DNA of 47,874 bases from Fidelibacterota bacterium. GTDB taxonomy: Bacteria > Fidelibacterota > UBA8477 > JABMPR01. The notes under the pieces are model-generated. The model did not search any database, was not told the DNA's origin, and worked only from the letters and a program-made list of their open reading frames with translations. A program made the position numbers and the translations under genes. Below, in pieces: positions 228 to 45,680 of the stretch. The stretch spans positions 1-47,874 of the forward strand of contig JABMQQ010000130.1 of assembly GCA_013202495.1 (NCBI GenBank). Reading direction: 5' to 3'. The stretch's first letter is position 1. Each line of letters begins with the position of its first letter.

Positions 228-1328
228 CTATGGGAGTTCTACAGAGCGAATCACCTTGCGCGTGCTACTAAAATCAGCATTTATTCCACTGCTTGCCAGG
301 GTATACATCTGCATAAAATCAGTCTTTTCATGCTCTACTTCTGAATTCTGGAAATTTGCCCAAGCAGGAGTATGCTCAAGTGGAATATTTAACCCGATAG
401 AGGTGATAAGTCGTTTGTTGTCCAGGAACAGAAAGCCATTCTTGCGTGTGGCATCCACTGGTACCCACCCTTTGACAGGTAGATAGATTTCTGACCAGAC
501 ATGGGCTCCGGTATTCTCAGGTACAAAGTTAAAGCCAGATTGTTGCCGAGCTGGAATACCAGCAATCCTGCACATAGTCATAAATAGAGCAGAATATTGA
601 CCGCAATCCCCTCTCAGGGTTTCAAGGGCATTTTTTACACCTCGTTGCTCAGGGGGATAGATGTATGTCATGGACTCCTGAACCCAGTTGTAAATGGCTT
701 CAGCCTGGCTGATGGGATCTGCAATATTCTCCAAAAGCTGGAAAACAGTATCTACCAGAGCCTCTTCCTGCTCCAGAAAGCGTTCGGATCGCGCATATTT
801 CTCCCTGATCTCAGGGGGGATTTGATCCCAGTGCATGCGTTCAGCGGCTCTGTCAATCTCGGGTCTATAATCATAGGTGATATATCTGAATTCTCGAGTG
901 ATTATGAAATTAGTTTCGCTTTGAAGCAAAGGATTCCAATACAGAATCTGATTTCCGTATTCTGAATCAATGAAACTGTGATCAGGTTGTGGACGGATGG
1001 TGGACTCTGACAACATCATCTGAGTTGGATAATCCCTGATATCCGAGCTCCATATATGTAATGATGGTGGTTCCTCATCCCGGATGCCATTTGCCTGATT
1101 TGATTCGATGAGGGCATCCTTTGGTAACAGTTCAACATTTTTCACACTGATTGTGAGTTCACCAGTGACCAACCGAGGATTTGAATACTCACTGGAGAGT
1201 TTTTTCATCGCATTCTGGAGAATGATCATTTCATCAGGATCGGGACGAGTGCTCTGATGACTACAAGCGATTACCAAAAACATTATGAGTAGAGGCGCTG
1301 AGCGTAGAAGACTATTATTCAGAGACAT
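228..1328 (-). CDS. Transglutaminase-like lipoprotein
   Basis: This 366-residue protein belongs to the transglutaminase-like (cysteine protease fold) superfamily. The N-terminus is a lipoprotein signal with lipobox VIAC, giving lipidated Cys22. The catalytic triad is visible in the usual order: Cys242 in GDCGQY, His276 in GAHVW and Asp292 in VPVDAT, so the domain occupies about residues 205-300. The roughly 180 residues before it match no family I recognise. Bacterial members of this kind act as proteases, amidases or peptide crosslinkers at the envelope; the substrate here is unknown. The gene is followed by non-coding sequence and lies 25 nt downstream of a same-strand outer-membrane protein gene, so the two probably share a transcript. 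The domain call is firm, the substrate is not. Confidence 0.85.
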   Translation of the reverse strand: MSLNNSLLRSAPLLIMFLVIACSHQSTRPDPDEMIILQNAMKKLSSEYSNPRLVTGELTISVKNVELLPKDALIESNQANGIRDEEPPSLHIWSSDIRDYPTQMMLSESTIRPQPDHSFIDSEYGNQILYWNPLLQSETNFIITREFRYITYDYRPEIDRAAERMHWDQIPPEIREKYARSERFLEQEEALVDTVFQLLENIADPISQAEAIYNWVQESMTYIYPPEQRGVKNALETLRGDCGQYSALFMTMCRIAGIPARQQSGFNFVPENTGAHVWSEIYLPVKGWVPVDATRKNGFLFLDNKRLITSIGLNIPLEHTPAWANFQNSEVEHEKTDFMQMYTLASSGINADFSSTRKVIRSVELP

Positions 1329-1353
1329 ACAAGATTTCCTTAAATCAATATTA

Positions 1354-2211
1354 CTATTTCATACTCTTGGGAAAATCGAAGATGAGACTCAGTCCGATCA
1401 GTCTCACCTTTTGATATTCAAGTGTACTATAAGGTAAATGCCCCTGATAATAATTAAGTAAAAATTTCACTGGAGTTTGGGTACTTCTCGCAAACTCAAT
1501 TCCTGCGCCAATTCTTATATTGGGGACATATTCATTATGCTCATAAATCTTCACATCCATCCCAGCCACCAGGGCAAGTCCGGGCTGTTTTAATAGTGGA
1601 TGATGCCAATCTCCACCCGCTTGAAGCAGGAGGCGTTCTCGCACGGTATTGGGAGAAACATTATATCCAGCTACTCCATAGAGATTCCACCCATCCAATT
1701 GCTTAAACAGGGTGAGATCAAGCTGCTCATAATTTTGAGTTCGGAGTGTGGGAGTCACAACGAAGTTGCGAATGATATAGTCATCTCCCAGATGTGAGGA
1801 TTGGTGAAAGAGGCTTACCCGGTACAATGTGTTGGAATTGTGTTCATAGTGAAAAACTGAGGATATCCGATAATCTGCATTCTGAAGTCCTCCCATAAAT
1901 GCCTCACCCACATCCACGATTGAAAACTGTGAGTAGATGGTAAACTCCATTCCCAGTTCCCACTGTCTGGTCTCTGATTGTACTGACCGGATAAATTGCT
2001 GGTGCATGCTCAAAGAAATTGGGACGTACATAAGCTGCTGGGTCTCCCCTTCAACCTCATAGCTCAAAACACTTATGCTTTGTTGACCCGCTGCTGGATC
2101 CAGGTATCGAGATGGAAAGAATGACCCCTGGGGCAACCAGCTTATCTCAGAACCTGAGAGGGAACCTGCGGACAGGATGCTTAGCAGGACAACTAGAATA
2201 CGAATATGCAA
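1354..2211 (-). CDS. Outer-membrane protein, DUF1207-like
   Basis: This is an exported protein of about 285 residues with an N-terminal hydrophobic signal (about residues 3-20, ending SAGSLSG) followed by alternating polar/hydrophobic strands rich in Tyr, Trp and Gly, as in a small outer-membrane beta-barrel. The overall pattern, with an early FFPSRYLDP segment and a late YYQGHLPYS segment, resembles the DUF1207 family, whose function is unknown; this assignment is from memory and moderate. No ATG is available for the start. The TTG at 2211 lies 17 nt from the only Shine-Dalgarno-like stretch (GGGGAG, 2234-2229), whereas an in-frame CTG at 2223 lies 5 nt from it and would give MNIFLHIRILVV. 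The true start may therefore be the CTG or an in-frame ATT at 2217. Confidence 0.65.
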   Translation of the reverse strand: MHIRILVVLLSILSAGSLSGSEISWLPQGSFFPSRYLDPAAGQQSISVLSYEVEGETQQLMYVPISLSMHQQFIRSVQSETRQWELGMEFTIYSQFSIVDVGEAFMGGLQNADYRISSVFHYEHNSNTLYRVSLFHQSSHLGDDYIIRNFVVTPTLRTQNYEQLDLTLFKQLDGWNLYGVAGYNVSPNTVRERLLLQAGGDWHHPLLKQPGLALVAGMDVKIYEHNEYVPNIRIGAGIEFARSTQTPVKFLLNYYQGHLPYSTLEYQKVRLIGLSLIFDFPKSMK

Positions 2212-2437: not shown

Positions 2438-3313
2438 TTGATTAAAGCAAAATTACATAATTATCTGATCATTCTCTTATCCCTGCTTACCATCGCGTTC
2501 CTGGTGCTCTATTCTGCCCAGAGTTTAAGCTATTTGAATACGCCTGTTGAAGAACGTTATCTGTTAAAAGAACTTGATAGTTTATTTGGCCCCTCAGGTC
2601 TTTATGGACATGGCGTTGGCTTTCTAGCAGCATTTTTTATGTTTTTACTCTGGTTGTATATAATTCGCAAGCGCTGGAATCGTCTACGGGGTATCGGACG
2701 TCTGAGCCAGTGGCTCAAATATCACATGTGGTTTGGGATTGTGGCTCCCCTTCTAGCTGGATATCACGCTGCCTTCAAATTCGAGGGTCTTATTGGCGTG
2801 ATGTATTGGGCCATGATAGCCGTCATGCTCAGCGGCATTGTGGGAAGATATTTATATGGCCATATCCCTCGTCGCCGGGATGGACACGAAATGAGCATGA
2901 AACAAATTAACACTGAGAAAGCTTCGAAACTGCGTTCCCTCCAGATGGAATTTGGGATTTCGCCTGAAGATATTAATAAGCTACAAGGCTTAACCCCTCA
3001 ACTAAGTGGTGCCGGAACACTGGTTTCACTTTATCACCTTGCGTTGTTTGATATAAAACGTCGCTATCAACTCAATCAGATTCTCAAAGACTTTGAGGTT
3101 CGATACGGCGTGAGTAAGCAGAACCTGGTCTTCTTTAAAGCAACGGTAGAAAAGCAGCTCATTATGAGCCAGCGCGTCATCGTACTTGATGCAGTGAGTA
3201 AAGTATTTCACTGGTGGCATGTCATTCATAAGCCTTTCGCCTATGCGATCTTTATCGTTTTAACCCTGCACATCATTCTCACCTTAAGTTTTGGATTCAC
3301 ATGGATATTCTAA
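2438..3313 (+). CDS. b-type-cytochrome-like membrane protein
   Basis: This 291-residue inner-membrane protein has about five hydrophobic segments (roughly residues 9-28, 56-76, 97-115, 118-140 and 267-288) and a charged soluble stretch between about 145 and 255. Histidines sit in or next to the membrane segments (His58, His96, His110, His142, and several in the last segment near WWHVIHKP), as expected for a haem b protein with two bis-His haems. It is first in a six-gene operon whose other members are a ferredoxin/flavin oxidoreductase and three multihaem cytochromes, so a role as quinone-linked membrane subunit passing electrons between the cytoplasmic oxidoreductase and the periplasmic haems is likely. 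The start is TTG: an in-frame stop precedes it, the next ATG falls deep inside the second membrane segment, and an AGGAAG lies 12 nt upstream. The haem assignment is inferred from spacing and context. Confidence 0.65.
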   Translation: MIKAKLHNYLIILLSLLTIAFLVLYSAQSLSYLNTPVEERYLLKELDSLFGPSGLYGHGVGFLAAFFMFLLWLYIIRKRWNRLRGIGRLSQWLKYHMWFGIVAPLLAGYHAAFKFEGLIGVMYWAMIAVMLSGIVGRYLYGHIPRRRDGHEMSMKQINTEKASKLRSLQMEFGISPEDINKLQGLTPQLSGAGTLVSLYHLALFDIKRRYQLNQILKDFEVRYGVSKQNLVFFKATVEKQLIMSQRVIVLDAVSKVFHWWHVIHKPFAYAIFIVLTLHIILTLSFGFTWIF

Positions 3314-4614
3314 ACAACGAATACGTACTATCCTGGTTATTGGGTGCCCTGCTTATTTTTGCTTTCACCGTGCCCTATCTCATCAGGTGGAAGCGCAAAC
3401 AGAACCAGACAGTAGAAAAGCTGAATGAAGCTACCCGTATTGGCGCAAATAAAGCTCTTATGCAGCACCCCATTATTGATTTATCCAGATGTATCGGTTG
3501 TGGTATTTGTACAAAAGTATGCCCAGAAGGTGAAGTACTGGGTCTGGTTGGTGGTAAAGCCGTTCTCATCAACGGGAGCAAATGCGTGGGACACGAAGTC
3601 TGCATGGAGAGTTGCCCCGTGGGTGGTATTGAGGTGGGTCTTGGTGACATATCCAGTAGAGAGGATATTCCTCAACTCAGCTCAGAGCTTGAAAGTAATT
3701 TTGAGAACATTTACCTCATCGGGGAGCTTGGTGGTCTGGCTCTTATAAGAAATGCTGTGAATCAGGGAGCCAGAGTGGCTAAATCCATACATTCAAAGCT
3801 GAATGGCTCAACCCCCTCTCAACCCATCGTTGTGGTTGGTGCAGGACCTGCGGGACTTTCATGCACCATTTCTCTCATGGAAATGGGATTGCCCGTTGTG
3901 CTCCTTGACCAAAGTGAACCAGGTGGAACCATCCTTCAATACCCCAGAAGGAAACTGGTCATGGTACAGCCCATAGAGATGCCAGGTTATGGTGAAATGG
4001 CCAATTCTGAATACTCAAAGGAAGAATTGCTCGAGATATGGGATAATATATTTGAAAGTCATTCTCCTGATTTTCGGAGCGGTCACCAATTGCAGACTAT
4101 CGAAAAAAATGACGATGGATATAGAATTACCACCAGTGCTGGTGAATTTTTAACCGGATATGTTATTCTCGCTCTAGGTCGGCGAGGTACACCCAGGAAG
4201 CTTGAAGTCCCTGGAGAAGATTTAAGTAAGGTTGCCTATAAATTGATGGATGCAGAGACTTATCAGAATAAACATATCCTGGTGGTCGGCGGTGGTGATT
4301 CTGCAGTTGAAGCTGCCGTGGGACTGGGTCAGCAAATAGGCAATACAGTAACCCTATCGTATCGCAAGAATGGTTTTGCAAGAATAAAGACCAGGAACGA
4401 CGAACAGGTCGCCAAAGCAGTCAAAAACGGATGGATTAATATCATGTATGAGTCCACTGTGGATTCAATCCATGACCAGCATGTGATCATCAATCATCTT
4501 GACCAAAAAAAGCAGGTTGAAAATGATTATGTATTCATTTTTGCTGGAGGAATCCCACCTTTCAAACTGATGAATTCAATCGGCATTCAATTTGGGACCT
4601 CTACATTATCGTGA
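3301..4614 (+). CDS. Membrane-anchored ferredoxin/FAD/NAD(P) oxidoreductase
   Basis: This 437-residue protein joins three parts. One membrane segment (about residues 9-28) is followed by basic residues. A two-cluster ferredoxin domain (about 55-112) has CIGCGICTKVCP for the first cluster (Cys64, 67, 70, 74) and CVGHEVCMESCP for the second, where His98 replaces the expected second Cys. From 174 onward comes a thioredoxin-reductase-like flavoprotein with a FAD GxGxxG at about 180-185 and a pyridine-nucleotide motif VVGGGDSA at about 328-335. The redox-active CxxC of true thioredoxin reductases is absent, so this is an electron-transfer module rather than a disulfide reductase. It overlaps the upstream gene by 13 nt and the downstream cytochrome gene by 4 nt (GTGA). 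It probably feeds electrons from NAD(P)H through FAD and Fe-S clusters to the membrane partner, or takes them in reverse. Confidence 0.82.
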   Translation: MDILNNEYVLSWLLGALLIFAFTVPYLIRWKRKQNQTVEKLNEATRIGANKALMQHPIIDLSRCIGCGICTKVCPEGEVLGLVGGKAVLINGSKCVGHEVCMESCPVGGIEVGLGDISSREDIPQLSSELESNFENIYLIGELGGLALIRNAVNQGARVAKSIHSKLNGSTPSQPIVVVGAGPAGLSCTISLMEMGLPVVLLDQSEPGGTILQYPRRKLVMVQPIEMPGYGEMANSEYSKEELLEIWDNIFESHSPDFRSGHQLQTIEKNDDGYRITTSAGEFLTGYVILALGRRGTPRKLEVPGEDLSKVAYKLMDAETYQNKHILVVGGGDSAVEAAVGLGQQIGNTVTLSYRKNGFARIKTRNDEQVAKAVKNGWINIMYESTVDSIHDQHVIINHLDQKKQVENDYVFIFAGGIPPFKLMNSIGIQFGTSTLS

Positions 4615-6248
4615 AATTGAAACATTTTGCTCTCGGATTATTTTTTCTCCTCAATTATCCTCTGACCCTGGAGGCTCAGTTGAGCCCTGGACCCCTGGCA
4701 GAGCCTCATGCCCATCTTTCCGGCTTCACCAACTGTCTCACCTGCCATACCTGGGGCAGCAAAGATTTAAGTCCAAAGTGCCTGGAATGTCATACACCAA
4801 TCCAAACCAGGATTGAGGATGAGCTTGGCTTCCATGGTAATCTCGAGGAAAACGATTGTCTTGCTTGTCATACTGATCATATGGATAGAAATTTTGAGAT
4901 GATCCATTGGGAGCCCTCTCAAAAGGATTTCGATCATCTGCAAACGGGCTATGAGCTAGAGGGGCAACACCTCAAACTGAATTGCAATGAATGCCACAAA
5001 AGCGAATTCATCATTTCAGAGGATGTTCTGGAATATGCCACATCCCTAAAAACAAGTGATGTGCTCTCATCCACATTCCTGGGTTTGGGATCTGATTGCG
5101 CCAATTGTCATGCAGATGTCCACGCCAACGAATTCGTAGACCAGACCTGCGACGATTGCCACAGTGAAAATAACTGGGATGATGCGAGAGATAACTACGA
5201 TCATGATTTTGATACCAATTTCCCTCTTCGTGGAGCTCATAAACAGCTCGAATGCGAAAAATGCCACACAGCATCACAGGAAGTCGTGGGTGAATTCCAG
5301 GCTCAGCAATTTACCGGTCTGAAGTTTAATCTCTGTACCAATTGCCACCAAGATCAGCACAAAGGATCATTTGGCTCAAATTGCCTCAAATGTCATACTG
5401 AGAGCACTTTTAAACAGGAAGATGTGGCTGGAGCATTTAATCACCAGGTGACACGCTACCCTCTGGTTGGCAAACACGCCATCGTCGAGTGCGAATTGTG
5501 TCACACCAGTAAGGATCGGTTTAAACTGGCTTCAAGCTTTGATCAATGTTCTGACTGTCACATAGATAACCATGAAGGCATCTTTCAGAAACCAGATCGT
5601 GATAATTCTTGTGATCAATGCCATAGCGTCCGTGGCTTTTTCCCTCCATTGTTCGGGGTGATAGAACATCGGAATACTCGATTTGCCATCGACGGAGCCC
5701 ATCTTGCTCAACCTTGTATCTTTTGCCACCAGCAAGATTTTGAACCTGTATATAGATGGGAGCCTCTAGCCTGTCAGTCTTGTCATACCACAGTTCATGG
5801 AGAACAGTTCACAGGATATCAACAGAATGGAAATTGGTGCGAGAGCTGTCATAGGACATCTGATTGGGCTGATTTGTCCTTCGACCATAACTCTACCCTT
5901 TTCCCCCTAACCGGGAAGCACGAAAAACTGGATTGTTCTGCTTGTCATGTTAGCAATGTAGAAATAACCCAGTATGAGGATACTGACTCTAGCTGCAACG
6001 ACTGCCACAGTGATATCCATTCGAAGCAGTTTGAGGAACAGATTTGCGAGGATTGTCATTCTACTCAGCACTGGAAAATTCCAGAATTTGATCATTTCAG
6101 TTTAACGGAGTTCCCCTTGGATGGTCAACACCAGGATCTGGCATGTGGTCAATGTCATAAGTTTGAGCTGCTGCTAAATACTATTCGCTTTAAACCCATA
6201 CCTCATAAGTGTCAGGACTGTCACAGCTTTGGGGATTTCAAGCGATGA
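4611..6248 (+). CDS. 20-haem periplasmic cytochrome c
   Basis: This 545-residue exported protein carries 20 CxxCH haem c motifs (counted by eye), the first CLTCH and the last CQDCH, about one per 27 residues. The signal peptide ends near LTLEA. Between the motifs runs a recurrent pattern of an FDH-like His, then a (F/Y)PLxGxH segment, then CxxCH; both extra histidines are natural distal ligands for bis-His haems. The translation start is GTG, overlapping the stop of the oxidoreductase gene (GTGA), and the end overlaps the next cytochrome gene by four nucleotides, so translation is probably coupled. The position just after the inner-membrane pair suggests it is the first periplasmic wire in the chain. 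No catalytic haem site or substrate-specific domain is recognisable. Confidence 0.88.
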   Translation: MKLKHFALGLFFLLNYPLTLEAQLSPGPLAEPHAHLSGFTNCLTCHTWGSKDLSPKCLECHTPIQTRIEDELGFHGNLEENDCLACHTDHMDRNFEMIHWEPSQKDFDHLQTGYELEGQHLKLNCNECHKSEFIISEDVLEYATSLKTSDVLSSTFLGLGSDCANCHADVHANEFVDQTCDDCHSENNWDDARDNYDHDFDTNFPLRGAHKQLECEKCHTASQEVVGEFQAQQFTGLKFNLCTNCHQDQHKGSFGSNCLKCHTESTFKQEDVAGAFNHQVTRYPLVGKHAIVECELCHTSKDRFKLASSFDQCSDCHIDNHEGIFQKPDRDNSCDQCHSVRGFFPPLFGVIEHRNTRFAIDGAHLAQPCIFCHQQDFEPVYRWEPLACQSCHTTVHGEQFTGYQQNGNWCESCHRTSDWADLSFDHNSTLFPLTGKHEKLDCSACHVSNVEITQYEDTDSSCNDCHSDIHSKQFEEQICEDCHSTQHWKIPEFDHFSLTEFPLDGQHQDLACGQCHKFELLLNTIRFKPIPHKCQDCHSFGDFKR

Positions 6249-9121
6249 GATTACTTCTTATCCTTGCCCTCTTCCTCTTGAGCAATGTTACCCATGCACA
6301 GGATGTTTCAGAGATCGAAACAGATTTAACGTGCGAAGTTTGCCATGCTGGTGGTGATTGGAGCTCTGATATAGGTCAGAATTTTGATCATATCATGACG
6401 GGGTACGAATTAAAGGGAACCCACGCTGAAATAGATTGTGGAAGATGCCATACAGGCTCTACACCGGCTGAGAAGCACAATTTTGGTCAGGTCTCCTCTG
6501 ATTGCCTGACCTGCCACGAAGATATTCACAATGATCAATGGGGTCAGGATTGTGAACGCTGCCATAGTCCTGATACATGGACTCTTTCGACTCAGCAACA
6601 AAACCATGATCTGACTAATTTTCCACTTCGGGGACCGCATCGAAGTTTGAGCTGTGAAAGTTGTCACCTAAGTAATCCTGGTTCAGGAGCCACCTTGCCA
6701 CTGGATTGTGCTGGTTGTCATTCTGCAGATTATAACGAAAGTGATAGTCCATCACATCAAATTCTGAATCTAGGGAACAATTGTGAGTCCTGTCATGCTC
6801 CGCAGAGCAATCGTTGGACCAGCTCCATATTCAATCACAATGATACTGGTTATTCTTTATTGGGGATGCATAACACCGTCAGCTGTGCCACCTGCCATAC
6901 CCAGAGTGCAGACAATACACCCCAGGAATGCATGAATTGTCATATGCCCGATTTTGATGCTACCACTCAACCTCCCCATCAGACAGAAGGGTTTCCACTG
7001 GATTGCCAATCATGTCATGACAGTTTTACCTGGAACTCCAGCTTCCTCCATGAGCAAACCGGTTTTCTGCTAGAGGGAGCGCACGAGACAACACTATGTT
7101 CGGATTGTCATACCGACCAAAATTTTGACAATACACCAGAGTTGTGTCAGGGCTGTCATCAGACCGATTGGGCGGCTACTGTAGTGCCGCCGCATGAGGA
7201 TGCAGAATTTGGCGAGACTTGCGAAGATTGCCACACCGTTACGGCCTGGCTACCAAGTTTATGGGATCATGACAGGGACTCTGAGTATCCTCTAACAGGT
7301 GCTCATATTGGACCAAGTTGTGAGGCCTGTCATACGGTTGCTCCATACTCAGCGCAGCCCTCTGAATGTGTAGATTGTCACCAATCCGACTACGATGAAT
7401 CCCTTGAGCCTAATCACCTAACTAGCGGTATGCCAACGACTTGTGATGTATGCCATACAACTGAGAATTGGAGTTCAGAGGAAATTGATCATACCCAGAC
7501 TGCCTTTCCTTTACAAGGAGCTCATACGGAAATTGAATGTATGACATGCCATGCAGATGGATATGATTTACCTACCGATTGCCAGGGTTGCCACCTTCCT
7601 GATTATACCTCAACAAGCGCTGGTCCCAGTCCTGATCATACCGAATATGGTTTCAGTCAGGATTGTTTAGTATGCCATGGCCAGGTAAGCTGGAAGCCCT
7701 CATCATTCGATCATGATGCCGATCTGACAGGTTTTGCCATACAGGGTGCTCATCTTGCTCTCCTTCCAGAAAATTGTTTTTCCTGTCATGAGACAGCACA
7801 ATGGACAGGACTCTCTGCGGATTGCTTCGCCTGTCATCAGAGTAATTTCGAGAACACCAGCGAACCGGATCATGATGCGAATGGGTATCCGCAGAATCTT
7901 TGTGAGACCTGCCATTCACAGGAAGTCTGGGAACCTTCGATTTTCAGTCATGAATCCAGTTCAATCAGTTGTGTTACATGCCATATGGTTCAATATACTT
8001 CAACCATTGATCCACCCCACGCTGAACTATCCTTCCCTACTGACTGTGCCGATTGCCATACCAGCACTGCGTGGACCCCCGGTACTTTTTCCCATGATGT
8101 TGAAACGGTGGGCTTTCTCACTGATGGTGCTCATTTGAACATTAACTGCAGTAGCTGTCATGAGACCTGGGAGCCCCCCACTGAGATCAGAACCTGTGCA
8201 TCTGCATCCTGCCATGAAGATAACTATTCAACATCAAGCAATCCGCCCCACGAAACCATGGGCTTCTCTCAGAATTGCTCGGATTGTCATACCACCACAG
8301 CCTGGCTCCCATCACAATTCAACCATGACACTCAGACAACAGGCTATGCCCTTGATGGAGCCCATGATAGCGCGGAGTGTCAGAGTTGCCACGCCCCCTG
8401 GGAAATAATTCCTGAACCTAGAACCTGTGCAGATGGAAGTTGTCATCAGGATAATTATTCAGAGTCAAGCAATCCACCGCATGCAACCATGAGTTTTTCT
8501 CAGAATTGCGAGGATTGTCATTCCACAACAGCCTGGTCACCCTCGCAGTTCCTGCACAATGAACTCAATACTGGATATCCTCTGGAAGGCGCTCACACAA
8601 ATGTTGTGTGTCAGAGCTGTCATTCACCATGGCAAATCCTTCCCGAGCCAAGAACCTGCGCAGATGGAAGTTGTCACTTACCAGATTATAATTCTGCTAC
8701 AGATCCAAATCATGCTTCCGCTTCTTTTCCTCTGGAATGCGAAACCTGCCATTCCATGACGGCCTGGGAGCCCTCAACCTTTGATCATGATGGGCAATTT
8801 TTCCCCATTTACAGTGGTCAACATCGCGATGAGTGGAACGATTGTTCCCAATGTCATGTAGATGCCAATGATTTTGCTGTTTTCACATGTTTCGGTGGGG
8901 ATTGTCACAATGTAACCGAAATGAATAGTGAGCACTGTGAAGGTGCTGATTGTGAGAGCTGCAATGGCCATACTTATCCAGCAACGGGTGTTACTCCCGA
9001 TGACTGCCTTACCTGTCATCCCAATGGGGATGAGGATGATTGCGGGGGTGATCTCCTGAATTTCTTCAAGATGAGAACGCTACCACAACCAACTGAGAAG
9101 AAATCTGATGAAACTCAGTAG
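6245..9121 (+). CDS. Giant multihaem cytochrome c, up to 36 haems
   Basis: I place the start at the ATG overlapping the previous stop (ATGA), which gives a clean signal peptide MRLLLILALFLLSNVTHA; an in-frame ATG 36 nt earlier would bury it. The 958-residue protein has 32 canonical CxxCH motifs plus four expanded CX4CH motifs (CASASCH, CADGSCH twice, CFGGDCH) in the C-terminal third, the variant known from some c3-type cytochromes. Spacing is one motif per about 27 residues, with the FDH...PLxGAH distal-His pattern repeated throughout, so the fold is probably an elongated haem wire. The last 80 residues contain four additional cysteines (HCEGADCESCNGH) outside any haem motif. The N- and C-terminal parts are paralogous to the next gene. 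It probably spans the periplasm or protrudes from the cell; which haem is the terminal one is unknown. Confidence 0.88.
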   Translation: MRLLLILALFLLSNVTHAQDVSEIETDLTCEVCHAGGDWSSDIGQNFDHIMTGYELKGTHAEIDCGRCHTGSTPAEKHNFGQVSSDCLTCHEDIHNDQWGQDCERCHSPDTWTLSTQQQNHDLTNFPLRGPHRSLSCESCHLSNPGSGATLPLDCAGCHSADYNESDSPSHQILNLGNNCESCHAPQSNRWTSSIFNHNDTGYSLLGMHNTVSCATCHTQSADNTPQECMNCHMPDFDATTQPPHQTEGFPLDCQSCHDSFTWNSSFLHEQTGFLLEGAHETTLCSDCHTDQNFDNTPELCQGCHQTDWAATVVPPHEDAEFGETCEDCHTVTAWLPSLWDHDRDSEYPLTGAHIGPSCEACHTVAPYSAQPSECVDCHQSDYDESLEPNHLTSGMPTTCDVCHTTENWSSEEIDHTQTAFPLQGAHTEIECMTCHADGYDLPTDCQGCHLPDYTSTSAGPSPDHTEYGFSQDCLVCHGQVSWKPSSFDHDADLTGFAIQGAHLALLPENCFSCHETAQWTGLSADCFACHQSNFENTSEPDHDANGYPQNLCETCHSQEVWEPSIFSHESSSISCVTCHMVQYTSTIDPPHAELSFPTDCADCHTSTAWTPGTFSHDVETVGFLTDGAHLNINCSSCHETWEPPTEIRTCASASCHEDNYSTSSNPPHETMGFSQNCSDCHTTTAWLPSQFNHDTQTTGYALDGAHDSAECQSCHAPWEIIPEPRTCADGSCHQDNYSESSNPPHATMSFSQNCEDCHSTTAWSPSQFLHNELNTGYPLEGAHTNVVCQSCHSPWQILPEPRTCADGSCHLPDYNSATDPNHASASFPLECETCHSMTAWEPSTFDHDGQFFPIYSGQHRDEWNDCSQCHVDANDFAVFTCFGGDCHNVTEMNSEHCEGADCESCNGHTYPATGVTPDDCLTCHPNGDEDDCGGDLLNFFKMRTLPQPTEKKSDETQ
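7985..8908 (+). repeat. Four in-frame 231-nt triheme repeats
   Basis: Inside the giant cytochrome gene, four consecutive units of exactly 231 nt (77 codons) run 7985-8215, 8216-8446, 8447-8677 and 8678-8908. Each contains two CxxCH motifs and ends in one CX4CH motif, so each adds three haems. Units two and three are about 70% identical at protein level by hand count (shared SSNPPH, FSQNC, PEPRTCADGSCH); the first and last units are more diverged. Exact length conservation shows growth by tandem duplication with no indels. Confidence 0.9.
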
Positions 9122-9929
9122 TTTCAAATTTCTTCTGGCTTTACTCCCCTTGTTTGTGCACCCACAGATGGTGGAGGATCGCTCCTGTCTGGATTGTCAC
9201 CTCTCAGGATCCTGGTTCCCCCTATCTGAGACACCCAGTTTCGATCACAATCAAGCCACAGATTTCAGGCTGCTTTTCAAACACGCCGATCTGGCTTGCA
9301 CTCAATGTCATTCGGGAAAAACAATAGATGAATTCCATAGCTTCTCCACCAAGGGCTTGGATTGTGCCAATTGCCATCAGGATATCCACCAGAACTATTG
9401 GGGCAATGATTGTGAGACTTGCCATAGCCCTCAGAACTGGGATCCAGCCATGGCCTATCGTCGACACAATGAGACCCTGTTTCCACTTGTGGCAGCACAC
9501 CAGTCCCAGAGTTGTTATTTGTGTCATACGACCCCAGGAATGGTGCCCTCTTTAGATTGTCAGGAGTGTCATGAGTCAGATTTCAGTCTTGAATTACCCG
9601 CTCACGTTGATCTTTCTCCCCTGACAGATTGTTCAACCTGCCATGCACCTACACGCTGGGATCAATTGCTGGCCATCAACCATGATGTCTTCTTCCCTAT
9701 TCACAGTGGAAAACATCGAGGAGAGTGGGATGCCTGTTCGGATTGTCATGAGCAGTCAGGTGAATATCAAGTGTTTACTTGTTTTGGATCTGGTTGTCAC
9801 GATGAGGGGGATATGAATGATGAACACTGTGAGGGTAATGATTGTGAGCAACGTAATGGTTTAACCTACCCACGTAGCGGAGTGGAATCAAACGACTGTT
9901 ACTTCTGTCATCCCAGGGGTAATGAATAA
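9108..9929 (+). CDS. 10-haem cytochrome c, short paralogue of the giant one
   Basis: This 273-residue exported protein has nine CxxCH motifs and one CX4CH (CFGSGCH). Its N-terminal 150 residues align with the start of the upstream giant cytochrome (shared DCANCHQDIH / DCLTCHEDIH, ETCHSPQNW / ERCHSPDTW), and its C-terminal 80 residues align with that protein's end (FFPIHSGKHRGEW / FFPIYSGQHRDEW, then VFTCFG, EHCEG, CHP). It is thus a version of the giant protein with the middle missing. The start ATG lies inside the upstream gene (14-nt overlap) and the stop overlaps the barrel gene by 8 nt. It may be the piece that sits in, or next to, the outer-membrane barrel; that is inference from gene order and size. 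Confidence 0.87.
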   Translation: MKLSSFKFLLALLPLFVHPQMVEDRSCLDCHLSGSWFPLSETPSFDHNQATDFRLLFKHADLACTQCHSGKTIDEFHSFSTKGLDCANCHQDIHQNYWGNDCETCHSPQNWDPAMAYRRHNETLFPLVAAHQSQSCYLCHTTPGMVPSLDCQECHESDFSLELPAHVDLSPLTDCSTCHAPTRWDQLLAINHDVFFPIHSGKHRGEWDACSDCHEQSGEYQVFTCFGSGCHDEGDMNDEHCEGNDCEQRNGLTYPRSGVESNDCYFCHPRGNE

Positions 9930-11547
9930 AATGCGGGGAGTGATGCGACAACTCGAAAAAAATATTTTACATCGCTTAATTTTGATGTTAGTACTCATTG
10001 GTTCTGGTATTGGTCAAGAACTGATTACGGGTTCTATTACCTATATCAGCCGTGACCAGGCCTACATAGATCTGGGGAAGAAAGCTGGTATACAAATTGG
10101 CGATAGTGTTCAAGTTTACCGCAATGATGTTTTGCTGGGTGTTGCCAGCGTCTCTCAAACCAGTGGTGCATCTTCTGCAATGGAGGGTTTGGATCCTTCT
10201 GTCATAGCCTGGGATATAGGGGACGATGTTCAAGTGGAAGTCAACCTGCCCAAACCCATTCAACCAACATCTACAGCTGCAATTGAGAGCCCTTCTGAAT
10301 CGAAGCCAGTTGTTCAGGTATTCCTGGACAGTAGTTCATATGCTCCGCGAACCCCGAGCAATATGAGTCTGGATTCAGATCGGTTTGCCCCCACCTTTAC
10401 TGGCTATGTCTCAACACGGGTTTCAGATCGAGGAGGTGATACCAGTGGGGTCAGGGAAACCAGAGGCTCTATATATGGCCAATTTAAGGTTCTTGATCTT
10501 GGAATTCGGCACCTGGATGTGAGTACCTATTTACGCAGCAATCGTTCCTCCAGAGATTCCAGTTCCCACACCAGTATTTACTCAATCATGCTGAGTTATG
10601 ACAATCCTGGAAGTCGTTTTAGCTATTTGCTGGGTAGAATGTATCATCCTCAATTTTCCATGTTAGGCACTATCGATGGTCTGGGTATGACCTGGAAATC
10701 AGATCGAAGAGTTATCGCTGTTGCCGCCGGTCTCATGTCTAACGTCAACGACATCCAGGGTCAGGTGCAACGCAATAAATTTGGTCTGCTTGATGAGGAA
10801 AGATTTAAATGGGGTAAGGTGCAGATTGGCGTTATCGGAGAAACCGAATCAGGCGCATTTTCCAGAAATTATCTCCTGTTGGGATCCACGTCGAAATTAA
10901 GTTCAAGTCTTAGAATACGAGGGTATAGTGAATTCGATCTCGATTTGCAAGATCAGTCTCAATTTCAGAGCACGGTCTCCCTTACCCGTTTTCGTGCTTC
11001 GATAAATTGGAGACCCTGGCGCTCTCTTATCAGTACTTCACGCTACAGTTATAGAGAGAACGTGATTGATTTACTCGATACAGCTGAAACGGAATTTGAG
11101 AAAGCTGCACGACATACTTTCAACACCAATTTGAGCCTTATGTTAGGCACTGGGATGAGCATTACCGGGCAAGCCAGTTTTAGAGGGGATGGAACCAACC
11201 GGCAAATCAAAATATTTGGCGCCTCCCTCAATCACCGAAACTTCACATCACAGTCCTATCAGCTGAATGCCGGTGGTATGGCTATGTTCTCCTATCTTAG
11301 TGAGGGTGGTCGCGTGTATGCCTCTGTAGGTCGAGATATCCTCCCCTGGTTGGATGTAGATTTATATGATGAGGTTTTTCTTTATCGTATTCTGGGTGAA
11401 TCCAGTTTTAGAACCCGACACTTACCTGAGATCTCTTTTTCTGCCAAAGTTCCTGGATTGCAGCGACTCAGATTACGCACAAGGTTTGAGCAGGAGAATG
11501 GGGAATTGCTCTATCGTTTTAGTCTCAGTGCCTCCAGGCAGTTTTAG
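9922..11547 (+). CDS. Beta-barrel outer-membrane protein, putative cytochrome porin
   Basis: This protein of up to 541 residues has a signal peptide (hydrophobic core LILMLVLIGSGIG), an N-terminal soluble domain (about 35-120) with a small SH3-like look (YIDLGKKAGIQIGDSVQVY), a proline/serine linker, and then about 400 residues of alternating amphipathic strands ending in RFSLSASRQF, the terminal Phe being typical of BamA-assembled barrels. It is last in the operon with three multihaem cytochromes, the arrangement seen in porin-cytochrome conduits such as those of metal reducers, though I see no direct likeness to MtrB. It probably sheathes a cytochrome across the outer membrane. The start is uncertain: ATGs at 9922, 9931 and 9943 are all in frame, the first overlapping the previous stop. 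Confidence 0.7.
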   Translation: MNKMRGVMRQLEKNILHRLILMLVLIGSGIGQELITGSITYISRDQAYIDLGKKAGIQIGDSVQVYRNDVLLGVASVSQTSGASSAMEGLDPSVIAWDIGDDVQVEVNLPKPIQPTSTAAIESPSESKPVVQVFLDSSSYAPRTPSNMSLDSDRFAPTFTGYVSTRVSDRGGDTSGVRETRGSIYGQFKVLDLGIRHLDVSTYLRSNRSSRDSSSHTSIYSIMLSYDNPGSRFSYLLGRMYHPQFSMLGTIDGLGMTWKSDRRVIAVAAGLMSNVNDIQGQVQRNKFGLLDEERFKWGKVQIGVIGETESGAFSRNYLLLGSTSKLSSSLRIRGYSEFDLDLQDQSQFQSTVSLTRFRASINWRPWRSLISTSRYSYRENVIDLLDTAETEFEKAARHTFNTNLSLMLGTGMSITGQASFRGDGTNRQIKIFGASLNHRNFTSQSYQLNAGGMAMFSYLSEGGRVYASVGRDILPWLDVDLYDEVFLYRILGESSFRTRHLPEISFSAKVPGLQRLRLRTRFEQENGELLYRFSLSASRQF

Positions 11548-28946: not shown

Positions 28947-30632
28947 TTATCCCTCAGCATCCAGAGCAATAGAAACATAAACGAACACACCGTTCCAATT
29001 GATGGCTATCTCATTGGTAGCCCAGCTGCAAAGTTCATCGATAAAAGCTTTTGCAGGATAAGGAGATAGATAGGCATCTGCTCCACAATCCGCTTTGTTT
29101 TCGGGGTTAGGTCCACCTGAGATCCAACCGGGTTGTGGCTCTACAATATCATCCGCCTCTGAGGGACGGTGATGAATATGCATGGGTGTTTTTTCACCGA
29201 AGCCAGTGACAAATGAATATCCATTGGGATTTTTACCCAGAACCCAGTCAAAGGTAGATTGGGCCGCATCCTTATAGGCTTTATCGCCACTGATCCTATA
29301 AGTATAGATCAAGACCATAGCCTGATTAAGAAAATCACCACTGCTCCCCCATCTGAAAGCATCATTGGAAACAGCATAGGCGCTGTTCATCTGTTCACTT
29401 AATAGAGAATCCGCCAGCACCATGAAAGCTTTCTTGACATCTTCATCAGATTCATGATTCAATTGATCCATGGCAGCTAAGGCTGCGCCGTCTCTCCATT
29501 CAGGTACCAATAGGGGTGTTGGTATCGGCGCTTCATAATTCTCACCAGTAGTGATGCTTAACTCAGTAGCTGCCCAAAACTTTTCATCGTTAAAGGGTTT
29601 ATCGAACTGATCATAGGCTCCGGTTTGTATATCCTCGGGTTGCTTATAGTAGACATCCATATTCTTCTGTGCCCAATTCCAAGCTTTTAGTGATGCAACA
29701 AGGCACTCCTCTGAAAATTCCATGTCATATGGCTTATAGACACGACTGGCTTGAGCCATTGAGGCTGCAAAACCTAAAGCTGCTGCTGTGGTCTTCATGA
29801 CTACCCAGCGTGATTCTGTATCCATTTCGGGCATAATCATTCCGGGGAAACTTTTGGTTGTGAGCTTATGGTATACACCGCCATCCTCAGTATCCTGCAT
29901 GGTGAGCATCCAGTCAAGATTCCAGCGTATTTCATCCAATAAATCTGGTGTCTCATCACCACTTTCAGGGATGTTGGTTTCCAATATGCCAGACTTTTCA
30001 GGATAATGTTCAAAAGCACTCATCATGGTGGAAACCGTTATTGCTGAGTTGACGATATACTTGCCAAAATCACCTGCATCATACCAGCCTTTGGGTGAGG
30101 AAATCGTGCTTCCCTCAGGACGTGAGGTAGATGCCGCACTGGCATGAATAATAGCTTCAGTATCAGGATGGCCTGCAGCTCTGGCATAAACACCGGCATA
30201 TTTTTCTTCAAGAGTGACACCAGCTCGATGAAAGTAAAAAGCCTTCACACTTGCTGTAGACACCTCAGAAAAAACATTTCGATCAATATCAAATTCGTGA
30301 GAATTGCTGGCACCCACTTGTAGCCTATAGGAACCTGGTTGTGTAAAGCTTGAAAAATCGGCCAGACGGACCGTTTCACCTGACGCTTCCCAATATTGTG
30401 GTTCACCTAGAGTTCCCTTGTGTACAATGGTCTGAGTCTGAACATCAATGATGCTAAAGGTCTCAGATGACCCAATTGCCACTGCAGATTTATATCCATC
30501 AGGTAAGTACCCCAATTGGTTTAGATGAATGGTATTCTCAGGCTGGGGTACTGCTTGGCTAGCTGGAGTACATGATAGAATTATTCCAAGTATTGAGGAA
30601 AGCATTAAGTTTAAGACTACATTCCGTTTCAT
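28947..30632 (-). CDS. GH9 cellulase, lipoprotein
   Basis: This 561-residue enzyme is a glycoside hydrolase family 9 cellulase (inverting, beta-1,4-glucan). The N-terminus is a lipoprotein signal ending LSC (Cys21). An Ig-like CelD_N domain follows (about 33-115, opening [12 protein letters not shown]), then the (alpha/alpha)6 catalytic domain. Key sites: DAGDFGKY with Asp185 and Asp188 (catalytic base region), an HHRPSEAD-type motif near 484-490, and the acid Glu541 in NEIAINWN close to the C-terminus. There is no carbohydrate-binding module or T9SS tail, so it is anchored in the envelope by lipid and probably cuts oligosaccharides that reach the periplasm. The start codon overlaps the stop of the GH94 gene (ATGA). 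It is the last gene of the glucan cluster. Confidence 0.93.
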
Positions 30633-33082
30633 TTGGATTCACCCCTTTTTGTTAGTGTCGCCACTATGTTATGGGTACTACCAGCATTCATTACTGGGAT
30701 TTTATTCCCAACTATTGCCTTACCATCCAGAACAAGGTTGACATTCCCTTTTTCCAGATGATCAGGATTATTTACTTCAATTTTGTAAGTGGCTCCACGA
30801 AACTTTCGTTCAATGGTATAACTCCCCCATTCTCCAGGAATACAGGGATCAATAATTAATCCATCATAATCTGGTTGAACCCCCAAAATAAAGCGACTAA
30901 TTGCGTAGTAATTCCATGAGGCCGTTCCTGTGAGCCAGGAGTTCTTGGCCTCGCCTGGTTTGGCAGCGTCTTTTCCAGCAATCATTTGTGAGTAAACATA
31001 GGGCTCTGTGCGATGTAATTCAGACACATCTTCCAGATAGGCAGGTGCAATTTTTGAGTATGTCTCAAAGGCGCGGGAACCTCTACCAATTTTAGTTTCG
31101 GCAATGGTTATCCAGGGATTATTGTGGCAGAATATACCAGCGTTTTCCTTGTACCCGGGGGGATAAGTAGAAATCTCTCCCAAATTGAGTTTATAGCTCG
31201 TATAGGCAGGTTGGTTAAGTACAATTCCATGCTCACAATCAAGATGTTCCTTGACAGAATCCAGCGTTTGCAGGGCACGACCATCATCAATACCTATTCC
31301 AGCCATGACACACATGCCCTGGGATTCTATGAATATTTTGCCTTCATCATTTTCATGGCTGCCTACTTTTTCACCGAAATGATCATAGGCTCTTAAAAAC
31401 CATTCACCATCCCAACCATGCTCGGCAACAACCTGCCCCATCTTACCTACTTCTTGTTGAGCCCGTTGAGCCTCAGCTGTGTTACCGATCTCCTGGCAGA
31501 TCCTGGCGTATTCATTGCCATAGGCTACAAACATTCCAGCAATAAAAACTGATTCCGCCTGCCCCCCTTCTTTGTTTTCTGTGGTTTGGAATGATTCACC
31601 CGGGGTCTCTGAAAAACAATTCAGGTTGAGACAATCATTCCAATCGGCTCGGCCAATCAAAGGCAGGCCATGGGGTCCCAGATTATTGATGACATGATCA
31701 AAGGAACGCTTTAAGTGATCTGTCATTGGAGCAGCAAGCTCTGGATCATTTTCAAAATCTACGACTTCATCCAGGATGGAGAAATCTCCTGTTTCCTTGA
31801 GGTACTCGCTTACTGAAAGAATCAACCACAATGGATCGTCATTAAAACCTGTCCCTACTTCGTCGTTTCCACGTTTTGTAAGCGGTTGATATTGATGATA
31901 GGCGCCACCATCCCGTAATTGAGTGGCCGCCAGGTCCAGAATTCTCTCACGGGCTCTCTCTGGAATTTGGTGAACAAAACCAATAAGATCCTGATTTGAA
32001 TCTCGAAATCCCATTCCCCTGCCAACCCCACTTTCAAAATAGGAGGCGCTCCGGGAGAGATTGAAGGTGATCATACACTGGTATGGATTCCAGGTATTCA
32101 CCATTCTTTCCAATTTCGGATCTAATCCCTCAATGCGATATGTATTCAAAAGTCCAGACCAATGGTCTTTCAGATTGTCAAGCGCGCGATTCACTTGACG
32201 GGAATGCTTGAACTGATGATGCATGGCTTTGGCAATATCTTTGTTAATAATCCCCGGTGCAGTCCACTTCTTATCAGTAGGATTTTCCACATAACCCATG
32301 ACAAACATGATGTCCCGTGATTCCCCGGGAAAGAGCTCTACTTTAATATTATGGGAAGCAATGGGCGACCAGCCATGTGCCAGAGAATTCCTCGAGGCAC
32401 CTTCTGTAACCACCTGAGGTGCATGCAATCCATTATACAAACCGAGAAAGGCTTCTCGATCTGTATCAAAACCTGTCAGAGGATCGCTGCAGGCATAAAA
32501 AGCGTAATGATTGCGACGTTCGCGGTATTCAGTTTTATGATAGATAATCCGTTCTTCAACTTCAACCTCGCCAGTGTTAAAGTTGCGTTGAAAATTGGTT
32601 GCATCGTCTTGAGCATCCCACAGAGCCCATTCTACAAAGCTGAAAAGATCAAGTTTCTTGGGGACGCTGCCTGTATTCTTTAGCGAAATACGCTGAACTT
32701 CTCCCTTGAAATTAAGGGGAACGAGATGAGTAATTTCTGCTCTAACACCATTTCTCTCACCAGAGATGACAGAATAGCCTAAACCATGGCGACAAGAATA
32801 ATCTTCCAGCGTGGCCTGAACGGGTTGCCAACCTGGATTCCAGATATCATCACCATCTTTGATATAGAAGTAAGTCCCACTTTGATCGAGGGGAACATTA
32901 TTATAACGATAACGGGTAATGCGGCGCAGTTTGGCATCCTGATAAAATGAATAACCACCGCCAGTGTTTGAGATGAGCCTGAAGTAATCCTGAGTCCCCA
33001 GATAATTGATCCAGGGCCAGGGTGTTTTGGGAGATGTGATTACATATTCACGGCGTTCATCATCAAAATATCCGTATTTCAA
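30629..33082 (-). CDS. GH94 cellobiose phosphorylase
   Basis: This 817-residue cytosolic enzyme (no signal peptide) is a GH94 phosphorylase of the length usual for cellobiose phosphorylases. It would convert cellobiose and phosphate to alpha-glucose-1-phosphate and glucose, saving an ATP compared with hydrolysis. Visible features include the N-terminal [15 protein letters not shown] opening, the [10 protein letters not shown] segment, and the active-site [11 protein letters not shown] with the DWND aspartates at about 480 and 483. Cellodextrin or laminaribiose phosphorylase are the alternatives, but overall resemblance favours cellobiose. The start is TTG, supported by a Shine-Dalgarno (GGAGAGG) 7 nt upstream. 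It lies 16 nt after the symporter gene and overlaps the GH9 gene. Confidence 0.92.
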
Positions 33083-33098
33083 GATCTATCCTCTCCCC

Positions 33099-34889
33099 TT
33101 AATCGTTTGCTAACTCATCAAACCAGCGTTTTTTAAGCCAATAACTTGTCGCTACTGCCAACGCTACAGCAAAACCCATGGCATACCATTCGCGGATGAT
33201 GAGATATACGGGAGCTACTACCAACGAGGTCTGCCAGATGATGCCTACTGCAACATTGCTTAAGTCGCGACCTGCAGATGCACCTGTTTTGAATTCTGGG
33301 TTCTCTTTAAGAACTTCTGCAGCTACTGGATCCCAGAAGCCCCAGGGACGTACAGTGGTGTAGAAAGATTTGAGATCATCCATTTCATCGGGTTGTGTCA
33401 GAAGACTGCCAAGAATACTACCGACAGCACCGAGACCCATGGTAACAGGGAAATAGTACAAATAATCAGAAGCTGGTACGATCTGGGCCAGGACCATGGC
33501 TGTGACAATTCCAGAGAGCATACCCCAGAAGTATCCATAGCCATTAAAGCGCCACCAGTGCCATTTCAAGACGTTTGGAATAGTGAAGCCACCCCAAAGA
33601 CCAGTTACGATCCAGCCCATGGCAGAATGGATGCTCTCGGCCTGGGTGCCCATGACAACTCCCACCACAACGATGAGGATACTGGCACCATAGCTCATCC
33701 AGATAACTTTCTTCTCACTGGCATCTGGGTCGATATACCTTTTGTAGATATCATTGATCAGATATGCAGCACCGGCATTTACTGTTGAATCAAAGGTACT
33801 CATATAGGCTGCCAGCAAACCGGCGATGACCAGACCGGTTACCCCAACCGGAAAAAATTCTCGAATAACGAAAGGCATAAGCATTTCAAAATCAGCAGCA
33901 CCTTCCATACTACGGAGCTCGCCACTAAAGAAAACAAGTCCCAACACTGCGATACCACCGATCATGAGCCAGCGGGGAATTAAAGCTGCGGAAACCATTC
34001 CGCTCATCATGGCGGATTCTTTGGGGCTGCGAGTAGCCAGGACACGCTGCATATCATAATTGGGAGCTGTTCCCGCCATACTTGTGAGGATCCCTTTGAA
34101 GAGCATCATCATCCACACGATAGTGAACATATTATAACCGTCCGCCGTGATCTTTTCCGTCACGGAAGGGAGCAGGCCGGACCAATCCAGGTCAAGTGTG
34201 TAGCCAAAGAACAATGTTTTCCAGCCATCAGGGATTACTGCATTAAGAGCATCCGGTGCCACATTGCTCATGGCGATGAAGGCAATAAAGATGGAAGCGA
34301 TGGTCAACATGACAAACTGGAATACATCGGTAATTACCACACTGAACATTCCACCGAGGATGACATAGAAGGTCGTTATCGCCATGAGTACCATTGCATA
34401 TGTATCTGGAGTCCAATCCCAGGGTAGAAATGCTGCAGCAAATCGACCGACACCCTGATAGGCATAAATCAGGAAGCTGATAACCGATATCAGCGCAAAT
34501 ACCACAATCGCGATACGTGAGAGTTCGGCCCCGCGACCTTTACCAAAACGGGTTCCGATCCACTCAGCGCCTGTAACAACACCACTGCGACGGATCCAAA
34601 CCGCCAGGTAAATCATGAGGAATATTTGATTAAATGTGGGCCACAACCAGGGCAGCCAGGTGCCTTTAAGCCCATAGACGAAGAGCATGCTGACCAACCA
34701 CATGGTACCAGCTATATCAAACATGCTTGAGGCATTGGAGACTCCAAGAACATACCAGGGGATACTTCTGCCACCTAAGAAGTAGGCATCCATTCCTTCA
34801 CCTGCCCTGCTTCTCAACCAAAGTCCCATTAGCACTACAGCTACGAGATAGATAACAATAATCGAACTATCAATAATGTGGAGGGTCAT
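33099..34889 (-). CDS. Sodium:solute symporter (SSS family), sugar importer
   Basis: This 596-residue inner-membrane protein has about 14 hydrophobic segments and the signature of the SSS family (MDAYFLGGRSIPWYVLGVSN near residues 33-52; AGLLAAYMSTFDSTVNAGAAY around 355-375). SSS proteins couple sugar or other solute uptake to a Na+ gradient. Lying between a GH2 enzyme and cellobiose phosphorylase, it most likely imports cellobiose or glucose released outside the inner membrane; the substrate is inferred from context. A strong Shine-Dalgarno (AAAGGAG) precedes the ATG. Na+ coupling would fit a marine or saline habitat. Confidence 0.9.
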   Translation of the reverse strand: MTLHIIDSSIIVIYLVAVVLMGLWLRSRAGEGMDAYFLGGRSIPWYVLGVSNASSMFDIAGTMWLVSMLFVYGLKGTWLPWLWPTFNQIFLMIYLAVWIRRSGVVTGAEWIGTRFGKGRGAELSRIAIVVFALISVISFLIYAYQGVGRFAAAFLPWDWTPDTYAMVLMAITTFYVILGGMFSVVITDVFQFVMLTIASIFIAFIAMSNVAPDALNAVIPDGWKTLFFGYTLDLDWSGLLPSVTEKITADGYNMFTIVWMMMLFKGILTSMAGTAPNYDMQRVLATRSPKESAMMSGMVSAALIPRWLMIGGIAVLGLVFFSGELRSMEGAADFEMLMPFVIREFFPVGVTGLVIAGLLAAYMSTFDSTVNAGAAYLINDIYKRYIDPDASEKKVIWMSYGASILIVVVGVVMGTQAESIHSAMGWIVTGLWGGFTIPNVLKWHWWRFNGYGYFWGMLSGIVTAMVLAQIVPASDYLYYFPVTMGLGAVGSILGSLLTQPDEMDDLKSFYTTVRPWGFWDPVAAEVLKENPEFKTGASAGRDLSNVAVGIIWQTSLVVAPVYLIIREWYAMGFAVALAVATSYWLKKRWFDELAND

Positions 34890-34917
34890 AGTCAGAGGCT
34901 CCTTTGAGACTATTTAT

Positions 34918-36756: not shown

Positions 36757-36772
36757 GGAAATCTCCTAAGCA

Positions 36773-38059: not shown

Positions 38060-38101
38060 GAAGTCTCCATCAGATACTTGGAGTAAAAGGTTTAGGGTTT
38101 A

Positions 38102-38785: not shown

Positions 38786-38796
38786 GCTTTCTCTTT

Positions 38797-39564: not shown

Positions 39565-39573
39565 CTATGTATC

Positions 39574-40620: not shown

Positions 40621-40723
40621 CTAGATACCATATTCCTTAAAATTGACTCTAATCAGTTTCTAAAGCATGAGACGCTTTTATCTCAAAATTCATTTGCTAA
40701 AAACTTAAATCATGAACCCTGTA

Positions 40724-40729
40724 ATTATA
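40724..40729 (-). promoter_or_regulatory. Possible internal promoter (-10 hexamer)
   Basis: A perfect TATAAT on the minus strand lies in the 128-nt gap 40621-40748, about 95 nt before the HlyD-like start codon. The matching -35 (GTGATA, 17 nt upstream) is poor. It is the only sizeable gap in the glucan cluster, so a secondary promoter here is plausible but weak. Confidence 0.25.
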
Positions 40730-40748
40730 AGCCTACAACCAACCAATA

Positions 40749-42713: not shown

Positions 42714-42743
42714 AGACCTTAAATCTTTAAAAGTTAAAACCCA

Positions 42744-43844: not shown

Positions 43845-43851
43845 AAGAATT

Positions 43852-45678: not shown

Positions 45679-45680
45679 AG

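Follow-up and report, generated by a model that had tools for sequence, protein, structure and literature searches.

A six-gene, 66-haem-motif operon in Fidelibacterota as a candidate trans-envelope electron conduit resembling PCC3

What does a bacterium do with three adjacent cytochrome genes that hold 66 haem motifs between them, flanked by a small membrane protein and an iron-sulphur flavoprotein on one side and a predicted beta-barrel protein on the other? The six genes, here named A to F, lie at positions 2438-11547, all on the forward strand, of contig JABMQQ010000130.1 of the Fidelibacterota assembly GCA_013202495.1. This contig of 47,874 nucleotides is the whole stretch that was analysed (the window; C115 in our numbering) and belongs to a 3.95 Mb draft genome that is 86% complete. 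The answer we favour, with a probability of roughly 0.7, is that the six genes together code for a single electron conduit across the envelope, of the porin-cytochrome kind described in Proteobacteria as PCC3, which leads from NAD(P)H to the outside of the cell. The closest named relatives are assigned to Candidatus Neomarinimicrobiota, the phylum now called Fidelibacterota, with up to 97% identity in protein A, and record names among the relatives (SI036, SI053, BS150m) suggest samples from Saanich Inlet and from 150 m in the Black Sea. The same gene order recurs in independent genomes, and an assembly artefact is therefore rejected.

The six genes and their products

The genes and their features are as follows.

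Gene A, 2438..3313, + strand: 291 amino acids from a TTG start; inner-membrane di-haem cytochrome b-like protein with WX3HX13H at residues 92-110 and 260-278 and SGIVG at 132 (13-row alignment, weak Pfam matches).
Gene B, 3301..4614, + strand: 437 amino acids; N-terminal membrane anchor, CxxCxxCxxxCP and CxxHxxCxxxCP iron-sulphur motifs, then an FAD/NAD(P)-binding domain (fold and motifs).
Gene C, 4611..6248, + strand: 545 amino acids; 20-haem cytochrome c with 20 CxxCH motifs, 27.2 amino acids per haem, signal peptide judged by eye; would act as a wire spanning the periplasm.
Gene D, 6245..9121, + strand: 958 amino acids; 36-haem cytochrome c (32 CxxCH and four CX4CH), 26.6 amino acids per haem, triheme repeats of about 77 amino acids; proposed extracellular wire.
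Gene E, 9108..9929, + strand: 273 amino acids; 10-haem cytochrome c (nine CxxCH and one CX4CH), a short paralogue of D.
Gene F, 9922..11547, + strand: 541 amino acids (538 if started at 9931); signal peptide judged by eye, then a small N-terminal domain (strands at 34-106, matching FlgT_C weakly) joined by a linker to a predicted beta-barrel at 158-540 that ends in Phe.

The original prediction had every gene overlapping the next, which holds if the first start codon is used in each frame. Two starts qualify it. The ATG at 6245 is likelier to begin D than position 6209, the start of an earlier reading frame of 970 amino acids, because the two genes then overlap by four bases (ATGA) at the stop of C, as in relatives L027, L031 and L033. 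A start of F at 9931 (Met 4, invariant in a 9-row alignment) is possible and would leave a 1-base gap in place of the 8-base overlap.

The haem motif counts first given for C, D and E, and their total of 66, proved exact and lie far above chance: in 2000 shuffles of each protein the mean number of CxxCH motifs is 0.24, 0.43 and 0.15, with maxima of 4, 4 and 3. Against TIGR03508, the decahaem MtrA family, the three proteins score 36, 32 and 24.5 bits, short of the cut-off of 192. A profile of C matches PDB entries 3ov0, 1z1n, 28pb, 6r2q_A and 3oue; sequence searches of PDB with A, D and F brought no useful match. Haem spacings of 16, 27 and 34 recur along part of D. Among 11 relatives of D, five are without one 77-residue block (about three haems), two are of equal length and four are longer by other amounts. 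E shares 41% identity with D in its head and 50% in its tail, and its CX4CH site is kept in all eight copies counted.

For comparison across phyla, the best 80 of 115 confirmed relatives from a scan of named genomes were retained, none of them a named Pseudomonadota, and the counts that follow come from 44 of these loci, those that extend 8 kb or more downstream; 36 loci were set aside for gene order. C has 20 haems in 30 of the 44, 17 in seven, 23 in three, and 18, 14, 11 and 9 in one each, the last two belonging to the odd locus L086 and the broken locus L111. The cytochrome that follows C has anywhere from 10 to 73 haems, although the 10-haem protein, in L080, may be of the E type. Because the length of C is near-constant across phyla and that of D is free to change, and from the look of their N-termini, C would bridge a fixed gap, the periplasm, and D would reach outside. 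A mostly 20-haem protein beside so variable a partner is a testable sign of a fixed-gap span versus a reach into free space. Two relatives of D have 73 haem motifs (L118, from 11551, in Zixibacteria) and 67 (L120, from 6407).

That the last gene encodes a barrel protein is borne out by structure prediction. An AlphaFold2 model of F made with 27 sequences (mean predicted local distance difference test score, pLDDT, 80.7; predicted template modelling score, pTM, 0.60) contains a barrel of about 22 strands at residues 158-540, a number that we counted on the prediction rather than on inspected coordinates and with two short neighbouring pieces taken as one; the linker to the N-terminal domain is of low confidence. 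Foldseek returns 221 PDB matches with E up to 0.001, and the best 50 of the 221 are outer-membrane proteins. Pilus ushers come first, followed by porins, with MtrB of the Mtr complex (6r2q_B) at rank 35 (E 2.2e-6). Such matches of a model show fold class, not kinship. F has no Pfam family above cut-off, and a match to the Pfam MtrB/PioB family is absent in 27 F proteins at E 0.01. We predict that F is an outer-membrane-type beta-barrel.

These same results bear on whether D and E are wires at all. They could instead be periplasmic or surface stores of haem or electrons, in effect a capacitor, with the barrel serving export and not conduction. The best fold matches of F are, after all, large translocation barrels, and D differs between several close species by whole 77-residue triheme units, as a store with a loose length constraint would. 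We consider this very unlikely, as the similarity to ushers is slight (about 10% identity, with TM-scores of 0.37-0.48 by query length), MtrB is likewise among the matches, and a steady C next to a variable D is a better fit to a wire across a fixed gap.

On the inner-membrane side, both WX3HX13H motifs and SGXXG are present in 19 of the 21 rows of an alignment of A (A2) that includes the window protein; the remaining two rows are short proteobacterial plasmid proteins with one exact motif each. W92, H96, H110, S132, G133, G136, W260, H264 and H278 are invariant across the 19 rows of a further alignment (A3). Pfam matches of A to Ni_hydr_CYTB and Ferric_reduct are weak and both under cut-off. 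The nucleotide-binding part of B is nearest to YpdA, thioredoxin reductases and thioredoxin-reductase-type ferredoxin-NADP reductases, and in Pfam it matches Pyr_redox_3, Fer4_2 and Fer4_10 best (the matches listed, 25 of 29 families, do not include pfam13247). Its second iron-sulphur motif, C-x2-H-x2-C-x3-CP, in which His replaces one Cys, is kept in 19 of 19 aligned copies, and the first, CxxCxxCxxxCP, in 16 of 19, its second Cys being replaced in L071, L077 and L125. The membrane segment of B is followed by RWKRKQ and so, by the positive-inside rule, the redox part would be cytoplasmic. Since a stretch kept in most copies, SYRK..F.RIK, looks like what we take to be the corresponding part of NADPH-binding thioredoxin reductases, NADPH is a first guess for the electron donor of B.

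Relation to known conduits

The original prediction called the composition unfamiliar, a description that has to be given up, as both order and composition match what published passages report of PCC3 in Sideroxydans ES-1 (PMC12016527, PMC8788666). According to passages of PMC5566968, PCC3 of Alpha-, Beta- and Gammaproteobacteria, including Sideroxydans and Leptothrix, consists of a porin, an extracellular cytochrome (median 34 haems), a periplasmic cytochrome (median 21) and an inner-membrane protein. The last has five helices, of which numbers 3 to 5 bear two WX3HX13H motifs and SGXXG, a signature published there for the inner-membrane proteins of PCC3 and PCC4. The same source gives a median of 26 amino acids per haem (range 22-39) and many transmembrane regions, up to 42, for most of the porins. 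In Gallionellaceae the periplasmic cytochrome of PCC3 has 21, 24 or 27 haems and the outer one 10-35, and a periplasm-spanning role is noted as an idea in a passage of PMC10734462. In ES-1, Slit_1446-1449 encode the inner-membrane protein, the periplasmic cytochrome (24 haems), the extracellular cytochrome (28) and the porin in that order (PMC8788666, PMC12016527).

Set beside these descriptions, the window has in A a protein of about 300 amino acids with two WX3HX13H motifs and SGXXG, and in C and D two very-many-haem cytochromes (20 and 36) whose 27.2 and 26.6 amino acids per haem fall in the published range. Like PCC3 it combines a cytochrome of about 20 haems, proposed to be periplasmic, with a variably sized giant cytochrome, proposed to be extracellular, and a predicted barrel, and it follows the ES-1 order with B and E inserted. 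It departs from PCC3, as so described, in that B belongs to the set and the short 10-haem cytochrome E is added, that the barrel has about 22 predicted strands versus up to 42 transmembrane regions in the porins, and that the hosts are phyla of the Fibrobacterota-Chlorobiota-Bacteroidota (FCB) group and Acidobacteriota, not Proteobacteria. We therefore call it a PCC3-like variant and not a proven member, likened by published composition, motifs, haem density and order.

Other known systems fit less fully. PCC4, in the passages of PMC5566968, has a porin, three multihaem cytochromes (4, 5 and 10 haems, all periplasmic) and an inner-membrane protein with similar motifs, and its subgroup II has an adjoining iron-sulphur gene, pfam13247, plus other redox proteins. 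The window likewise combines a predicted barrel, three multihaem cytochromes, a motif-bearing inner-membrane protein and a nearby iron-sulphur gene, but with 20, 36 and 10 haems it does not fit PCC4 as described. As in MtrCAB and MtoAB, a barrel and cytochromes would lead through the outer membrane, and the C profile finds 6r2q_A at E 1e-7; unlike in those systems, F is without a Pfam MtrB/PioB match, and the haem numbers and the inner-membrane part differ. Conduction across liposomes has reportedly been achieved with purified MtrCAB. The two HX13H pairs of the small membrane protein A, beside an NAD(P)H-type flavoprotein, resemble the core shared by NADPH oxidases and ferric reductases, whereas the flavoprotein of the window is a separate, thioredoxin-reductase-like gene product with two iron-sulphur sites.

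Among the titles and abstract openings listed from the open literature, none names the cluster in these phyla, and no paper of the open literature searched joins Marinimicrobia, extracellular electron transfer and multiheme. Passages of PMC7399161, PMC13322032, PMC5317091 and PMC6295460 do not describe it; the supplements of the MHCscan survey (PMC11475568) may list some of these genes. A PCC3-like conduit would, with these hosts, extend beyond Proteobacteria to Acidobacteriota and the FCB group, and so to a marine phylum with hardly any cultured members.

Conservation, gene order and the electron donor

The gene set stays together in relatives. A barrel gene, a B gene and at least two cytochromes of at least eight haems are each present in 43 of the 44 loci, and all three in 42; among all 80 loci, cut-off contigs included, the figures are 49, 58 and 56. 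The profiles used to find B and the barrel were built partly from the same loci; 19 of the 43 barrel matches and 27 of the 43 B matches lay outside the profile-building alignments. An unrelated barrel or a gene set split in relatives had been named in advance as evidence against a conduit, and neither was found, because the barrel matches outer-membrane folds and the set is kept.

The order A-B-C-D-E-F is present in 18 of the 44 loci, namely 13 of L045-L059 together with L063, L064, L070, L094 and L116; those 13 are all of the L045-L059 loci with at least 8 kb downstream, the other two of the 15 being shorter. The 44 also include carriers in Calditrichota, Zixibacteria, KSB1 and Acidobacteriota, with rearranged orders. 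A-C-D-F-B is seen in six of seven Calditrichota, three of five Zixibacteria and several further loci, B-A-C-D-F in Zixibacteria L071 and L074, KSB1 L115 and also L077 and L109, and C-D-F-A-B in both Acidobacteriota, L122 and L124. A tree of A, in which support for some deeper branches is weak, groups the B-A loci in a single clade of nine: B precedes A in eight of them, and the ninth (L089) begins at A.

This mobility of B bears on what feeds the conduit, which was first predicted to be NAD(P)H- or quinol-linked. NAD(P)H fits the motifs of B, and quinol stands as the alternative. In that alternative the conduit is the same but A is fed by menaquinol, B serves either as a side input or as a quinone reductase, and outward respiration is energy-conserving through complex I. 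Quinone exchange has been proposed for the PCC3 and PCC4 inner-membrane protein in a passage of PMC5566968, and the four-gene PCC3 descriptions, in the passages cited, do not name B, so that A-type proteins may work without it. B is nevertheless kept with A in those 43 loci, whichever the phylum and whether it follows A, precedes it or stands at the far end of the set. Such constancy suggests that it is a required partner, and B is likely the cytoplasmic electron input that the cited PCC3 descriptions lack. We give the menaquinol alternative clearly less than even odds; if it is correct, the same wire would serve normal respiration.

Outside the phylum, a search of 147 genomes with A3 gave a match in 14, several of them partial, and the full set is not present in all of the nine match regions (of 14) that were read. 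Viral contigs gave no relative of A at the search sensitivity used. A related set with an adjoining sigma factor gene is carried by plasmid pEMTOL02 of Emticicia oligotrophica DSM 17448 (L125; NC_018749.1, 11914-20610). First comes a gene for cytochrome assembly, with ResB and cytochrome c assembly domains, then A (31% identical to that of the window) and B, then C with 23 haems and D with 40, and, where F would be expected, a hypothetical protein that matches F weakly (20% identity). Among 72,556 plasmid records it is the only match to C at 1e-10 or to D at 1e-8. Emticicia is a cultured carrier, so the function of the set is open to bench testing. Of the long genes that lie upstream of A in some loci, the one in L043 is PD40/Omp85 and that of Emticicia is an assembly gene.

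Two further forms of A were observed. In two genomes (L156, 8510-10492; L157, 4857-6842) an A-type protein lies in frames of about 660 amino acids, apparently fused to another part. On proteobacterial plasmids (L126, 7773-8531; L127, 7785-8546) short, distant A-type proteins follow a 2Fe-2S protein, and in Methylophaga a cytochrome comes next.

Proposed electron path, its direction and the surrounding genes

A plausible scenario for the favoured NAD(P)H-to-outside conduit is that B, anchored in the inner membrane with its iron-sulphur and FAD part inside, oxidises cytoplasmic NAD(P)H or reduced ferredoxin. Electrons would then cross the inner membrane by way of the two b haems of A, much as they do in NADPH oxidases and ferric reductases, and the 20-haem C would carry them over the periplasm into or up to the barrel F. 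Outside, D and its short paralogue E would pass them on to a final acceptor, which could be a mineral, a humic substance or another cell. That the proteins form a complex, where they lie, and which donor, direction and final acceptor apply are all points that we infer. Because outward flow through A would, by analogy with NADPH oxidases, spend rather than build membrane potential, either a redox valve in sugar fermentation or a low-yield respiration is to be expected. A stronger version is tentative and, in our judgement, rather less than an even bet. It would have a quinone-independent NADPH-to-outside line acting as a prokaryotic trans-envelope NADPH oxidase, with C, nearly fixed at 20 haems, as a molecular ruler for the envelope and an outer cytochrome that grows by trihemes, old and widespread in FCB phyla and used as a redox valve in sugar breakdown.

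Several points weigh against the conduit. The proposed place of D and E would require their exit from the cell. Hydropathy of A gives four clear membrane segments, the one with the first WX3HX13H being below threshold; by eye C and E seem to start with signal peptides, yet their N-termini fall under the same hydropathy threshold. The structure model of C is poor (pLDDT 70, pTM 0.35) and has no PDB fold match. Two of the 44 loci depart from the pattern: B and the barrel are both missing from L086, and L111 has fragmented cytochrome frames, with one of at least eight haems left. The A profile matches 38 of 245 phylum genomes, one of them weakly over 55 residues. In the genus A is found in 13 of 19 genomes, that of the window included; because it is missing from the other six, three of which are at least 90% complete, the system is accessory in the genus. 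PCC3 itself is described in a passage of PMC12442390 as a four-gene cluster of untested function, and both PCC3 clusters of Sideroxydans ES-1 are reported to be down-regulated with Fe(II) (passages of PMC8788666 and PMC12016527).

That down-regulation speaks also against a conduit that runs inwards, in which electrons from extracellular Fe(II), a mineral or a partner cell pass through D, F and C to A, and the role of B is to supply NAD(P)H or to put the electrons to biosynthetic use. PCC3 does occur in iron oxidisers (passage of PMC5566968), and in Sideroxydans CL21 the inner-membrane gene of one PCC3 copy is up with iron-oxidising activity (passage of PMC12442390). The genome of the window also has two haem-copper oxidase genes above cut-off, so that an oxygen sink is available. 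Fe(II) would, however, have to reduce NAD(P)+ uphill, with no driver in the operon, and the genes around it are for polysaccharide breakdown; we judge inward flow unlikely. The polysaccharide-degrader setting of the original prediction is real, with the relevant genes starting at 28.9 kb, and the surroundings are as follows.

Window 28947-47195, - strand: polysaccharide locus with glycoside hydrolase (GH) genes GH9 and GH94, a sodium symporter, GH2, two GH5 and two GH16; three of these proteins have secretion-tail domains.
Window 38102-39564, - strand: DUF4956 and VTC-domain genes, side by side in the polysaccharide locus.
Window 228-2211, - strand: transglutaminase-like and DUF1207 genes, divergent from the operon and adjoining it in several same-genus relatives too.

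Other multihaem loci of the same genome lie on contigs C140, C141, C8, C71 and C138 (L134-L139), with up to 18 haems per protein. We also note that in a same-genus genome (L036, 11943-14455) three further cytochromes, of 4, 8 and 12 haems, directly follow the operon.

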